IMG/VR virus record: IMGVR_UViG_3300010297_000002
Coordinates: 1 to 64,000 of that record
DNA from: a virus
Direction: 5' to 3' (one strand)
DNA: 64,000 nucleotides
Part shown: piece after piece, positions 44,345 to 47,971 of the stretch
How the letters are laid out: every line of letters begins with the position of its first letter
Position numbering within the stretch: position 1 is the stretch's first letter
Position numbers and translations under genes: made by a program
The notes under the pieces: generated by a model
Told to the model about the DNA's origin: nothing
The model's input: the letters and a program-made list of their open reading frames with translations, nothing else
The model's database searches: none

Positions 44345-45493
44345 ATGGAAACTGCCGAAAATACAAACAAGGTGCATTACCGCCCACGACCTTCTAAGAC
44401 GGAAGGTTACTTTTCAGATGAGAACATTACGATTCTCTCAAACGCAATCACATTCAATCAACCAGTCTTGCTTCAAGGTGAGTCGGGCACTGGTAAGAGT
44501 ACGATTGTACGATGCCTCGCTCGTCAAAAGGGTGTCGAGGTTGTACGTATCGATGGCTCGGGGAATTTGACCGAAGATGAGATCATCGGATGTCAGACTT
44601 TGGAGCCCGGTGAAGGCGGTATGCCTAAGCTGACTTGGAAAGACGGATTTCTCACGGACTGTGTACGTCATGGTAAGTGGTTGATCCTTGAGGAAATCAA
44701 TGGTATCAAGCCGTCAGTACGCCTGTCATTACACTCCATTTTGGAGGACACAGGGTATTTGACTCTTCATACAGGTGATAAGGTCTTCAAACATCCTGAT
44801 TTCCGATTCTTCGCCACGATGAATCCTCCTTCGATTCAGTACACTGGTACTCAGCGAGATAACTTCGCTTTTAAGGATCGTTTCATTCCAATTCCGATTT
44901 CGTACCTGGATGCGGAGACTGAAACTGAACTTCTTCTGGAGTACTTTGGTTATGGTGAGGCTTACTACGCTCACGAAAAGATCAAGGAAGTTATCAGTAC
45001 TCTGTGTGAATATGCTTCCAGTCAGAGAGAGCGTTATGCTAACGGCGATGGAATCGAGTTCCCATTGACCACTCGTAAGTTGATTCAGTTGATTCAGCAC
45101 GCCCATACCATGAACTTTGATCTGGTTTTCGATCAGTTCATGAGAGGTATTTCTGACAAGGCTTCCGCCAAGGCGATGCATGATCAGTTGGTGACCATGA
45201 TTTCCCCAGGGTCTACTGATGATGTGATCTTCAAGGACAGTGGGAAGACTATCCCATCTACGGACCTTACAGCGGCAATTGAAGCTCTGGAGGACGGTGT
45301 TCATGAAACCAAGATCAGTGGTAGTTCTCCTACCGAGGCCATCATTAACATGGGCAAGGACGTTGACTACTTTAAGGTAGCTTACAACTTCTCTTACGAG
45401 GATGTTGTAGCTGACGAAGAACTCTCTGAGTTCGATGCCTTGTGTATCGAGTCCGCTCGTGATTTCATGATCGGTCGCGGATACTTAAAGTAA
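44345..45493 (+). CDS. MoxR-type AAA+ ATPase
   Basis: 382 residues. Walker A is GESGTGKST at about 45-53, Walker B is WLILEEIN near 112-119, and sensor 1 is FFATMNPPS near 157. The arrangement, including an insert before sensor 1 and the segment FKDRFIPIPI, matches MoxR/CobS-like ATPases, which use ATP to load or remodel partners that have a VWA domain. The next gene, 32 bases downstream, encodes such a partner. Similar pairs are known from cellular operons and some large phages; the client in this phage is unknown. Confidence 0.85.
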   Translation: METAENTNKVHYRPRPSKTEGYFSDENITILSNAITFNQPVLLQGESGTGKSTIVRCLARQKGVEVVRIDGSGNLTEDEIIGCQTLEPGEGGMPKLTWKDGFLTDCVRHGKWLILEEINGIKPSVRLSLHSILEDTGYLTLHTGDKVFKHPDFRFFATMNPPSIQYTGTQRDNFAFKDRFIPIPISYLDAETETELLLEYFGYGEAYYAHEKIKEVISTLCEYASSQRERYANGDGIEFPLTTRKLIQLIQHAHTMNFDLVFDQFMRGISDKASAKAMHDQLVTMISPGSTDDVIFKDSGKTIPSTDLTAAIEALEDGVHETKISGSSPTEAIINMGKDVDYFKVAYNFSYEDVVADEELSEFDALCIESARDFMIGRGYLK

Positions 45494-45525
45494 TAGTAGT
45501 ACGGATTTTACCCTAGAGGTCTACA

Positions 45526-47355
45526 ATGTCTGAGATTATTCAAGAAAATAAAAACACTAACGCCAAAAAAGCCATACCCAATTACTCGGTGGGTTTGTCC
45601 CGAGCTGATCAGCTCGCTAAGGCCATCGTAAACAAGTATGGGGTTAACGTGAAGGTTGGGGAGTCTCCCTGCGTAGATCTCAAAACCAATACCATCTACG
45701 TACCTCCGTTCGATCCGAATGATGATACTGATGTTTCAAACATGATTCATTATATTGTTCATGAGGTTGGACACATCCTCTACTCGGATCAAACGGAGCT
45801 TCGTGGAATTAAGTTCAAGATCCTGAATGTGACCGAAGACCAAAGAATTAATGCCAAGCAAGAGTTGAAGTACGCTGGAATCAGTTTCAAGGTCATGGAG
45901 CAGAGAATCATGGATAAGATGGCTCGTTCCAATAAGAAGTCCCAGGAGAGGGTCGATGACTTTGTAAAGAAGCTAGAGGAGTCTGGTGTAGACCAGCTCT
46001 TTGGTATCGACAAAGAGAAGATCAAAGAGAACCAAGAGGCTATCGAGAACTTGAACATCTTCATTTCAGGTCTTCTGATGAAATGTCATGGTGTTGCTAA
46101 GGCTAAGATTAAAAAGCACTTCAAGAGGCAGGATTGGTGGCAGGCCTATGAGTCCATCGAGAGTCTTCTGGAGCATAAATGGGTGAAGATTCCGTCCTCA
46201 GCCCTGCTGGAGGATGATGCTGAGGCCATCTTCGATGCGATCAAGGATTTACTTCCTGAGAACTTCGAGAACGAAACTACGTCCGACGGGTCCCATGTGG
46301 TCTCCATGCCAGCGGATGGGTTCGGTCAAGGAGACCCAGCCGATCAATCTGATCAGGGGCAGCAAGGGGGCCAGGGCGGTGACCAACCTTTATCTCAGCA
46401 AGGGGGGACCCACTCAGAGAATGGTTTTTCTAATGAGGACTTGGAGAATAAAGTAAAGAACTCCTCTTGCCGTAGTGACAATGTCACTGAGGAGGAGTCC
46501 TGGTCCGATGGTGACAAGAACAACAACCCCTCTTACGGGACAAATCTCACTGATAGGGTTATGGAGAACACAACTTTCTACCGGTATAACCCGAACAGTC
46601 ATGCAGGTTCTTGGTCTCAGCGAGATCGTTTAGATCTTCGGTCGAAGATGTTCTACAACCGATTTCTAGATATGCTTCTAGTCGAAGACCAGATAGATCA
46701 TCAGGACGGTTATTCTTCTGGGAAGTTGGCCAAGCCTCATAAGATCATGACCAGTCCTCGAATCTTCTCTAAGATTCAAGATGGAGTTACTCATGAAAAG
46801 GTAGACGTAACGATTATTTGCGACTATTCCGGTTCCATGGGAGGTTACACCCAGAATGTGGCTGAAGTAGGAGGAGGGATTGCTTTGGCTTTGTCGAAGC
46901 TGCAGATCCCTCATCAGATGTTCGGTTACGACTCATCATATGGGAGTGACTGTAAGGTTTATGAGATAATTCCTTACAGCACTATATTTGATGCACGGAT
47001 GTGCGACGCTCTGTTTAAGATGAATTCTGGTGGAGGAACCCCGACCGGAGAGGCCTTGATGTATTGCTTGGAAAAGCATGTGTTACCCAAGCCTGGGTTT
47101 CGTAAGTTGGTGTTTTTGATTACGGACGGATGTCCGAATAATCCTTCTTACACGGAAGATATAGTTAAAATCTACCGAAGGTACAAGGACATCAAGTTAT
47201 CCGGTATTGGAGTGGGTAGTAGTTGTGAGAACCTACTCCGACATATACCAGACGCAATGCTGATGAAGGACTTCGAGCAGTTCACTGTCGAAGGGCAGCA
47301 GAAGTTCTTTAATGACCTGGAGAAATTCATGGTTGGCGGTCGCACAATAATTTAG
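45526..47355 (+). CDS. Metallopeptidase-like (HEXXH) VWA protein, MoxR partner
   Basis: 609 residues, AGAGG six bases before ATG. Residues 79-83 form HEVGH within IVHEVGHILYSD, a zinc-peptidase motif, and NVTEDQRINAKQE about 20 residues later can supply the third ligand. A Gln/Gly-rich linker covers roughly 262-295. The C-terminal VWA domain has a complete MIDAS: DYSGSMGG (D433, S435, S437), GGTPTGEAL and ITDG. This order, putative metallopeptidase then VWA-like domain, matches the DUF2201 type of proteins that work with MoxR ATPases. The two genes probably form one machine that acts on a protein target. Confidence 0.82.
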   Translation: MSEIIQENKNTNAKKAIPNYSVGLSRADQLAKAIVNKYGVNVKVGESPCVDLKTNTIYVPPFDPNDDTDVSNMIHYIVHEVGHILYSDQTELRGIKFKILNVTEDQRINAKQELKYAGISFKVMEQRIMDKMARSNKKSQERVDDFVKKLEESGVDQLFGIDKEKIKENQEAIENLNIFISGLLMKCHGVAKAKIKKHFKRQDWWQAYESIESLLEHKWVKIPSSALLEDDAEAIFDAIKDLLPENFENETTSDGSHVVSMPADGFGQGDPADQSDQGQQGGQGGDQPLSQQGGTHSENGFSNEDLENKVKNSSCRSDNVTEEESWSDGDKNNNPSYGTNLTDRVMENTTFYRYNPNSHAGSWSQRDRLDLRSKMFYNRFLDMLLVEDQIDHQDGYSSGKLAKPHKIMTSPRIFSKIQDGVTHEKVDVTIICDYSGSMGGYTQNVAEVGGGIALALSKLQIPHQMFGYDSSYGSDCKVYEIIPYSTIFDARMCDALFKMNSGGGTPTGEALMYCLEKHVLPKPGFRKLVFLITDGCPNNPSYTEDIVKIYRRYKDIKLSGIGVGSSCENLLRHIPDAMLMKDFEQFTVEGQQKFFNDLEKFMVGGRTII

Positions 47356-47357
47356 TA

Positions 47358-47386
47358 TTGACAATAGTTATTTGATAACTTAAGAT
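47358..47386 (+). promoter_or_regulatory. Promoter of the Ser/Asp leader-tRNA operon
   Basis: A perfect -35 TTGACA (47358-47363) is followed after exactly 17 bases by TAAGAT (47381-47386), four of six for the -10. It begins three bases after the stop of the VWA gene. The predicted start is near 47393, so the leader ATG at 47394 would be at the very 5' end of the RNA. This is the only TTGACA-17 promoter seen in the window. Confidence 0.6.
47366..47380 (+). promoter_or_regulatory. Palindrome in the promoter spacer, possible operator
   Basis: AGTTAT TTG ATAACT is a perfect six-base inverted repeat filling the spacer between the -35 and -10 boxes. A repressor bound here would block RNA polymerase. 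The palindrome could be chance in AT-rich DNA, but its position is exact. Confidence 0.4.
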
Positions 47387-47393
47387 TAAGTAT

Positions 47394-47474
47394 ATGACTT
47401 ACAAGTTTTTGGTAAATAGTGATTCCAGTTCCTCTTCGGATTCAGATCCGAGGGGAGGGTTTCCTGTTCGCTAA
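47394..47474 (+). CDS. Ser/Asp leader peptide of the tRNA operon
   Basis: A 26-codon frame begins with the ATG at 47394 and ends with TAA at 47472. Residues 9-18 are only Ser and Asp (SDSSSSSDSD), with codons AGT GAT TCC AGT TCC TCT TCG GAT TCA GAT. These codons need exactly the five tRNAs encoded downstream: Ser-GCT for AGT, Ser-GGA for TCC and TCT, Ser-CGA for TCG, Ser-TGA for TCA and Asp-GTC for GAT. No Shine-Dalgarno is present; with the predicted start site the message would be leaderless. The codons overlap the 5' arm of the first attenuator hairpin, as in trp and his leaders. The protein itself is unlikely to have another job. Confidence 0.75.
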   Translation: MTYKFLVNSDSSSSSDSDPRGGFPVR

Positions 47475-47526
47475 AAATTAGCAAGTCATTTGCAAAAACC
47501 CTCACCCGAAAAGGTGGGGGTTTTTT
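47431..47526 (+). promoter_or_regulatory. Leader-peptide attenuator (mutually exclusive hairpins)
   Basis: Three structures compete. Hairpin 1:2 pairs 47432-47441 (within the Ser codons) with 47446-47455 around a TCAG loop: ten pairs, two of them G-U. Antiterminator 2:3 pairs GAGGGTTT (47455-47462) with AAACCCTC (47496-47503), eight perfect pairs, and can extend by GGG (47452-47454) to CCC (47505-47507) across one bulged A. Terminator 3:4 uses the same AAACCCTC. A ribosome stalled at the Ser/Asp codons would mask arm 1 and free arm 2 to pair with 3, allowing read-through into the tRNAs. A ribosome that reaches the TAA would cover the GGGTTT of arm 2 and leave the terminator to form. A small GCTAA-AAA-TTAGC hairpin spans the stop codon. 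Confidence 0.75.
47494..47526 (+). terminator. Intrinsic terminator before the tRNA cluster
   Basis: CCCTCACC (47499-47506) pairs with GGTGGGGG (47513-47520; one G-U) around CGAAAA. It is extended by an A-run before and six T residues after (47521-47526). It ends ten bases before the first tRNA, so it must be overcome, or a separate promoter used, for the tRNAs to be made. It is the 3:4 element of the attenuator. Confidence 0.88.
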
Positions 47527-47536
47527 GTTTTCATTT

Positions 47537-47609
47537 GGTTCCGTAGCTCAATGGTTAGAGTACCGGCCTGTCACGTCGGGGGTTGCGAGTTCGAGTCTCG
47601 TCGGAACCG
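47537..47609 (+). tRNA. tRNA-Asp (anticodon GTC)
   Basis: The cloverleaf is complete: acceptor GGTTCCG/CGGAACC, D-arm GCTC/GAGT, anticodon stem CCGGC/GTCGG around loop CTGTCAC, and T-arm GCGAG TTCGAGT CTCGT. The anticodon GTC reads GAC and GAT. The discriminator base is G and no CCA is encoded, so a CCA-adding enzyme is needed. It is the first gene after the attenuator terminator; GAT occurs three times in the leader. Confidence 0.95.
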
Positions 47610-47614
47610 TATTT

Positions 47615-47697
47615 GGAAGAGATCCGGCTAGATGAGGAGCACGCCTGGAAAGCGTGTGCGTTGAAAAGCGTTGCGGGGGCGGGACCTGCCTCTTCCG
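47615..47697 (+). tRNA. tRNA-Ser (anticodon GGA), atypical D and T arms
   Basis: The acceptor GGAAGAG/CTCTTCC is perfect. The anticodon stem CACGC/GCGTG closes loop CTGGAAA, giving GGA for UCC and UCU. A long variable arm (GCGTT GAAA AGCGT) is typical of Ser. Two parts are odd. The T-stem GCGGG/CCTGC closes loop GGCGGGA, lacking the near-universal T54, T55 and A58. Only 18 bases separate the acceptor from the anticodon stem, with a weak D-stem TCC/GGA and no T8. It may be a functional variant or a decaying gene. Confidence 0.7.
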
Positions 47698-47704
47698 TAT
47701 TTTT

Positions 47705-47787
47705 AGTAGGTTGGCCGAGTGGTAAGGTATACGGTTGCTAACCGTAAGTCTCCGTAAGGAGCGGTGGTTCGATCCCACCACCTACTG
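47705..47787 (+). tRNA. tRNA-Ser (anticodon GCT)
   Basis: Acceptor AGTAGGT/ACCTACT, anticodon stem TACGG/CCGTA with loop TTGCTAA (anticodon GCT, reading AGC and AGU), a long variable arm with CTCC/GGAG, and a canonical T-arm GGTGG TTCGATC CCACC. The discriminator is G and no CCA is encoded. AGT occurs twice in the leader Ser/Asp run. Confidence 0.93.
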
Positions 47788-47793
47788 CATTTT

Positions 47794-47879
47794 AGTAGAT
47801 CGGCCGAGTGGTTGAAGGCAGCCGCCTCGAAAGCGGTAGAACTTGATCAGTTCCGTAGGTTCGAATCCTACATCTACTG
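47794..47879 (+). tRNA. tRNA-Ser (anticodon CGA)
   Basis: Acceptor AGTAGAT/ATCTACT, D-arm with the usual GAGTGGTTGAA loop, anticodon stem GCCGC/GCGGT with loop CTCGAAA (anticodon CGA, reading UCG), a long variable arm (AACT/AGTT), and a canonical T-arm GTAGG TTCGAAT CCTAC. The acceptor is nearly identical to that of the preceding Ser tRNA, suggesting duplication. Confidence 0.94.
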
Positions 47880-47884
47880 TATTT

Positions 47885-47971
47885 GGAAGCGTGGCAGAGT
47901 GCTCTATTGCGTCTGATTTGAGATCAGATGATCCTTACCGGGGTCCGTGGGTCGGAATCCCACCGCTTCCT
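47885..47971 (+). tRNA. tRNA-Ser (anticodon TGA), swapped D-T loop contact
   Basis: Acceptor GGAAGCG/CGCTTCC, anticodon stem TCTGA/TCAGA with loop TTTGAGA (anticodon TGA, reading UCA), and a long variable arm GATCC/GGGTC. The T-stem GTGGG/CCCAC closes TCGGAAT in place of TTCGAAT, so position 55 is C and 56 is G. In the D-loop (GAGTGCTCTAT) the usual G18-G19 is G-C. The conserved 19-56 contact is thus reversed from G-C to C-G. The discriminator is T, where bacterial Ser tRNAs have G. No CCA is encoded. Confidence 0.88.

Follow-up and report, generated by a model that had tools for sequence, protein, structure and literature searches.

The window analysed here, a 64,000-nt stretch of DNA, belongs to a phage represented by a 73,249-base IMG/VR record. 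Its positions 47358-47971 hold a candidate promoter, a short open reading frame, an intrinsic terminator and a cluster of tRNA genes (Table 1). Directly upstream, at 44345-47355, a MoxR/CobS-like AAA ATPase gene adjoins a gene whose 609-aa product has a VWA domain at its C terminus and an HExxH motif. The promoter, for which consensus is the only evidence, lies just 3′ of the VWA gene (stop at 47355) and upstream of the short frame, and is the sole match in the window to TTGAC-N17..19-TANN(AT/TT). The ATG of the short frame follows the −10 box by about 7 bases, and transcription is inferred to begin at about 47393/47394, that is, on the leader AUG itself. Because the predicted start point falls on the AUG and the frame lacks a Shine-Dalgarno-like motif, which most other genes in the window possess, translation of the leader peptide probably starts on a leaderless mRNA, a mode of translation that is known for leader peptides in Streptomyces (PMC8079986). 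Such a start is less usual in a phage with Shine-Dalgarno motifs at its other genes, which counts against the model.

Table 1. Coordinates of features at the window locus and of two annotated frames in cultured phages.
Feature	Position	Strand	Basis or remark
sigma-70-type promoter TTGACA-N17-TAAGAT	47358..47386	+	10/12 consensus matches; start point inferred
Leader peptide frame MTYKFLVNSDSSSSSDSDPRGGFPVR, 26 codons	47394..47474	+	no Shine-Dalgarno-like motif
Regulatory codons AGT GAT TCC AGT TCC TCT TCG GAT TCA GAT (Ser/Asp)	47418..47447	+	unique in window
1:2 (protector) hairpin, arms 47425-47441 and 47446-47459	47425..47459	+	minimum-energy fold of leader
Outer stem closing the untranslated leader, 47394-47413 with 47470-47489	47394..47489	+	fold
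2:3 antiterminator, 47452-47462 with 47496-47507	47452..47507	+	−18.7 kcal/mol; P about 1 when ribosome covers arm 1
3:4 intrinsic terminator and T tract	47494..47526	+	13 pairs, −18.8 kcal/mol
tRNA-Asp (GTC)	47537..47609	+	ARAGORN, Rfam (start 47536/7)
tRNA-Ser-like gene (GGA)	47615..47697	+	fold: intact cloverleaf; not called by ARAGORN/Rfam
tRNA-Ser (GCT)	47705..47787	+	ARAGORN, Rfam
tRNA-Ser (CGA)	47794..47879	+	ARAGORN, Rfam
tRNA-Ser (TGA), T-loop TCGGAAT	47885..47971	+	ARAGORN, Rfam
Agrobacterium phage Atu_ph07 AUZ95228.1, annotated hypothetical protein, 42 aa	MF403008 339118-339246
Bacillus phage G gp86, annotated hypothetical protein	JN638751 58381-58515

An earlier, sequence-only reading had proposed that this frame, with ten successive codons for only Ser and Asp, is the leader of an attenuator for the tRNA genes behind it. 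The frame and its codon run are real (MTYKFLVN-SDSSSSSDSD-PRGGFPVR). Across the six frames of the 64 kb window a Ser/Asp run of at least seven occurs only at 47418-47447, and no run of at least ten arose in 60 Markov-shuffled windows. The ten codons are jointly readable by all five downstream anticodons. Four of the five proposed tRNA genes (Asp-GTC, Ser-GCT, Ser-CGA and Ser-TGA) are called by both programs, whereas Ser-GGA is recognized only by its fold: it forms a complete cloverleaf with a long variable arm and the anticodon GGA, but its T-loop reads GGCGGGA in place of the usual TTCGANY, and neither ARAGORN nor Rfam called it even at loose thresholds, so its function is less certain. The proposal that each of the five is needed for at least one leader codon holds only in part, because the TGA anticodon can also read TCG and CGA is therefore not strictly required. 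The T-loop of Ser-TGA is, like that of Ser-GGA, non-standard; these odd T-loops could reflect decay, or resistance to a tRNA-targeting factor.

As attenuation requires, the intrinsic terminator sits between the leader and the tRNA genes, 19 nt 3′ of the leader stop codon, and the tRNA genes begin ten bases beyond it. The terminator 5′ arm contains AAACCCTC (47496-47503), the exact complement of GAGGGTTT (47455-47462), as had been read from the letters. The hairpin previously placed at the Ser/Asp codons exists too, but it is longer than proposed in the minimum-energy fold (−14.4 kcal/mol by itself), and so sequesters GAGGG of arm 2. The 2:3 pairing is about equal in energy to the terminator and exceeds what dinucleotide shuffles give (z −2.8, p 0.013).

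To place a ribosome on the leader, its edge was assumed to lie 13 nt after the first A-site base, and the antiterminator probability was computed before arm 4 is made. This probability is about 1.00 for an A site at every codon position from 47406 to 47444, and about 0 from the A-site codon at 47445 on or without a ribosome. The prediction that a ribosome stalled on the Ser/Asp codons frees arm 2 for the antiterminator is thus borne out by folding, and a ribosome at the leader stop codon gives the terminator form. When the full-length leader is folded without translation, its 5′ end pairs with bases 3′ of the stop codon, the 1:2 hairpin is formed, the antiterminator probability is 0 and the terminator stays intact. 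Once arm 4 is present, equilibrium in the window favours the full-strength 3:4 helix over 2:3; the decision must therefore be a kinetic one, as in trp and classical attenuators. The computed antiterminator and terminator are therefore mutually exclusive folds with a common arm, and a stall on the regulatory codons favours the former.

Since the untranslated leader also takes the terminating fold, translation by itself would influence the switch, and the same anatomy might sense a general signal (transcription-translation coupling, ribosome availability or infection timing) in place of a shortage of cognate charged tRNA. We regard a general signal as unlikely; it gives no reason for the matching of codons to tRNAs that is found across operons, described below.

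Conservation of the leader could not be used, because the searches turned up no close relative of this phage. Searches through the VWA, AAA and 170-aa neighbours returned only distant proteins and no syntenic locus in the collections searched, as did those through the helicase, RecD, RecA and DnaB, and DNA similarity to named phages was limited to tRNA bodies. Near the phage contig end lies a gene for an IS607-type transposase/serine recombinase (L002:10022-10624; record 72021-72623), with up to 58% identity to plasmid-borne IS607 copies. The idea was instead tested across phages. A pattern scan built on Ser tRNAs gave no second Ser/Asp leader. A generic screen of the same loci for cognate codons yielded a Leu leader (L007), and this case led to a class.

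For this class, viral contigs were scanned for tRNA genes with an upstream GGTTTTT(T) tract, and the short frames ending near the terminator of each tRNA cluster were scored for enrichment in the amino acids of the cluster's own tRNAs. Once identical leader ends had been collapsed, 105 non-redundant phage tRNA units with an upstream short frame and terminator remained; tRNA sets were permuted among operons as a chance control (2000 permutations). Cognate-enriched leaders (p<0.01) precede 29 of the 105 units, compared with a permuted mean of 4.6 and a maximum of 12 in 2000, and the summed −log10 p is 173.6, compared with 63.2 ± 7.2 (maximum 89.0). A held-out set, consisting of the last scan and seven further loci with settings unchanged (n=48), gave 12 cognate-enriched units against 1.5 after permutation (max 5) and a summed −log10 p of 73.1 against 27.2 ± 3.8. 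The matching extends to anticodons: in 42 of the 84 operons with at least three, each anticodon can read some codon of the leader, compared with 10.1 when permuted (maximum 20 in 1000). The bias of synonymous codons towards the operons' U34 anticodons is modest (z 2.8).

The architecture recurs together with the codons. In the cognate group the 2:3 pairing has a mean z of −3.0 relative to shuffles and reaches p<0.05 in 62%; in some class members (L031, L033 and L093) the antiterminator is no better than shuffles. The distance from stop codon to terminator has a median of 23 nt in the class (interquartile range 20-26). Leaders are shared among related phages, so independent origins are fewer than these counts. 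Not every tRNA-carrying phage uses the device, and such leaders are absent from many phage tRNA operons: none precede the tRNA operons of Bacteroides phage DAC19 and four named crAss-like phages, and the screen found none at those of Cronobacter phage GAP32.

When the same pattern and screen were applied to bacterial chromosomes, 1 of 36 tRNA units passed p<0.01, with 1.5 expected from permutation. The codon-tRNA matching is therefore not an artefact of the method, including any effect of terminator-rich sequence, and bacteria do not seem to use such leaders for their own tRNA operons in the sample screened. The sole bacterial unit that passed, on contig L411, has MTMCMTTCMKMK.. before tRNAs Lys and Met, and is possibly due to chance or to a prophage.

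These results bear on another account of the window locus, in which the terminator is an ordinary one that ends the operon of the VWA gene next to a cluster of tRNAs; the Ser/Asp frame would then be fortuitous and never translated, and constitutive read-through would supply the tRNAs. In favour of this account, the gene does stop at 47355 and terminators often precede tRNA genes, in bacteria too. However, the only consensus promoter is located 3′ of the gene and 5′ of the terminator, which any transcript from it has to cross; the Ser/Asp run is not there by chance; and matching leaders recur in phages and not in bacteria. We consider an ordinary terminator very unlikely.

The individual leaders differ in sequence, and their composition matches the tRNAs behind them. 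The first independent case, the Leu leader L007, reads MKTLNISTLLNNLLLLLR, with eight Leu codons, seven of which are TTA, ahead of tRNA-Leu(TAA), and has a 10-bp antiterminator and a closed-leader fold like that of the window. Leu/Ser tRNAs are preceded by LSLSLSLSLSLS and MKTTLSLSLSLSLSLSG; in MKTTLSLSLSLSLSLSG all six anticodons are represented. Four Gln tRNAs follow MTTSFQQQQQQQ (QQQQQQQ) in the 642-kb GenBank huge phage LR756502, and Trp, His, Phe, Lys and Ser tRNAs follow KHSKHFSSSSKWFTTF in the 735-kb LR756501. Further leaders are NIFEFDFFAAEADF before Phe, Glu, Asp and Ala tRNAs, NCGFCRWTCKGC before Cys, Phe, Trp, Gly, Lys, Thr and Arg tRNAs (7/7) and MKTIINIDMINVADNI before Met, Ala, Ile, Val, Asn and Asp tRNAs (6/6). 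From the held-out scan come QQNWFNCDFDFNQD before Asp, Cys, Phe, Asn and Gln tRNAs (L460) and a phage, L508, whose three tRNA operons carry three different matching leaders.

Several attenuator-controlled tRNA operons per phage are also seen in L460, L097, G002 (L256, L284-L289) and G003 (L248, L290-L292); in these phages, as in L508, each leader matches its own tRNA set. In one family, Val/Leu/Cys-rich leaders of divergent sequence stand before Cys-Val-Leu tRNA clusters (L011, L014, L027, L033, L035, L088 and L093), keeping their composition while the peptide sequence drifts.

Two leaders belong to cultured giant phages, in which they were annotated as hypothetical proteins (Table 1). AUZ95228.1 of Atu_ph07 ends with VRAEAAMFWYPISGSDSHTGDKR and is followed by tRNAs Ala, Arg, Phe, Pro, Ile, Tyr, Trp, Met and Glu; all eight distinct anticodons scored have a leader codon, and CCGGTTCCG lies opposite CGGAACCGG of the terminator (−18.5 kcal/mol), giving a 9-bp antiterminator. 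In phage G, gp86 reads MMKCSWFEFDTDFTDVFYCEYTFYSLYTFLD... and precedes tRNAs Cys, Asp, Phe, Tyr, Glu, Thr, Ser and (annotated) Trp; none of 2000 equally large amino-acid sets drawn at random fits it as well as the first seven of these tRNAs. Such annotations would suit frames whose micropeptides have a function of their own, acidic Ser/Asp or hydrophobic Leu/Val/Cys ones for instance, with the terminator separating them from the tRNAs. We give this notion hardly any credence: the peptides of the class have no sequence in common, yet their composition tracks the neighbouring tRNA set down to the anticodon, and the competing pairing and the fixed distance from stop codon to terminator would be left unexplained. 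In the absence of any experiment, gp86 and AUZ95228.1 are best read as attenuator leader peptides.

Taken together, the observation at 47358-47971 is confirmed by computation with small corrections, and its interpretation as an attenuator is supported, much further than the sequence-only reading could take it: thermodynamics, competing pairing and generality could each have refuted it, and none did. A cognate leader, a competing pairing and a terminator recur before many unrelated phage tRNA operons, with codons that track the tRNA set. Although there are no RNA, ribosome-profiling or genetic data, we are confident that the window locus is a ribosome-mediated transcription attenuator that makes the phage tRNA operon self-adjusting.

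In the mechanism that we infer, RNA polymerase would start at about 47394, with a ribosome following, probably on the leaderless AUG. If charged tRNA-Asp or any tRNA-Ser were short, the ribosome would stall within the ten Ser/Asp codons and cover arm 1, arm 2 would pair with arm 3, and the polymerase could proceed into the Asp and Ser tRNA genes. With ample charged tRNAs, the ribosome would reach the stop codon and cover arm 2, the 3:4 terminator would form and the tRNAs would not be made; an untranslated leader RNA would close on itself and terminate too. Newly made tRNAs would, after charging, turn off their own operon. The same device is proposed for many phages, with leader codons matching the operon's own tRNAs, often three to eight anticodons together. 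The cellular trigger is likewise inferred: high demand, host shut-off or tRNA-cleaving defences may deplete tRNAs, and each of these, including defence nucleases that destroy tRNAs (PMC10264068, PMC11555353), would starve the leader. A link to host tRNA shortage is plausible, without data so far. More broadly, we think it probable that phages infecting several groups of hosts use their tRNA operons as closed-loop controllers of tRNA supply: the codons of a composite leader spell out the tRNAs of its operon, so that losing a single charged species, for instance to a host anticodon nuclease, induces the whole replacement set.

The reason why phages carry tRNAs has been debated for more than 50 years (PMC10264068). 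If phages induce these operons only when the matching charged tRNAs are short, the leader is a readout of the operon's purpose and would distinguish steady codon compensation from resupply on demand. Small 'hypothetical proteins' beside tRNA clusters in well-known phages, such as gp86, would then also be accounted for, and leaders would offer natural multi-tRNA sensors. Phages G and Atu_ph07 are cultured systems for direct testing.

Phage tRNA operons are known to restore translation after host tRNA depletion, as T5 tRNA-Tyr does against retron-Eco7; papers on such counter-defence and on codon compensation describe tRNA identity and a strong promoter, but no on-demand attenuator (PMC10264068, PMC11555353). 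The sequence-only reading knew of no phage tRNA operon under this kind of control, and our literature search, whose coverage excluded subscription papers and most preprints, found no description of one either. T-box riboswitches also sense tRNA charging and control tRNA-related genes through a terminator/antiterminator choice, but they bind uncharged tRNA directly, without translation, and T-box covariance models gave no match at the window locus even at E up to 10. In Actinobacteria, leaderless leader peptides, some of them before the synthetase genes leuS, trpS, alaS and thrS (PMC8079986), resemble the window in that the peptide is read from a transcript starting on its AUG and cognate codons control the tRNA-charging machinery; their output is a synthetase or a biosynthetic enzyme for one amino acid, whereas here it is phage tRNAs.

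The mechanism itself is of an already known kind, the ribosome-mediated attenuation of trp and his, although the case for it here is computational. The amino-acid operon attenuators (trp, his, leu, ilv, thr and phe leaders; modelled in PMC1183508) share with the phage device a short frame of regulatory codons, 1:2, 2:3 and 3:4 helices, an intrinsic terminator and its relief by stalling, and in the model of Elf and Ehrenberg many regulatory codons make the attenuation switch sensitive (PMC1183508). None of the Rfam leader families (His, Trp, Leu, Thr, Phe and ilv) scored above gathering at the locus (Thr_leader 18 bits, Phe_leader 17 bits); weak matches to GibS, PyrR and Thr_leader were far below the cut-offs and were attributed to the terminator. 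Unlike those attenuators, the phage device controls viral tRNA genes rather than biosynthetic enzymes, its sensor is composite (Ser and Asp in the window, up to eight or nine tRNA species elsewhere) and the operon's output is the very molecule that is sensed. Within the literature searched, this target, a composite sensor with codons for each operon's own tRNAs, and a closed loop whose product removes the inducing signal appear to be undescribed.
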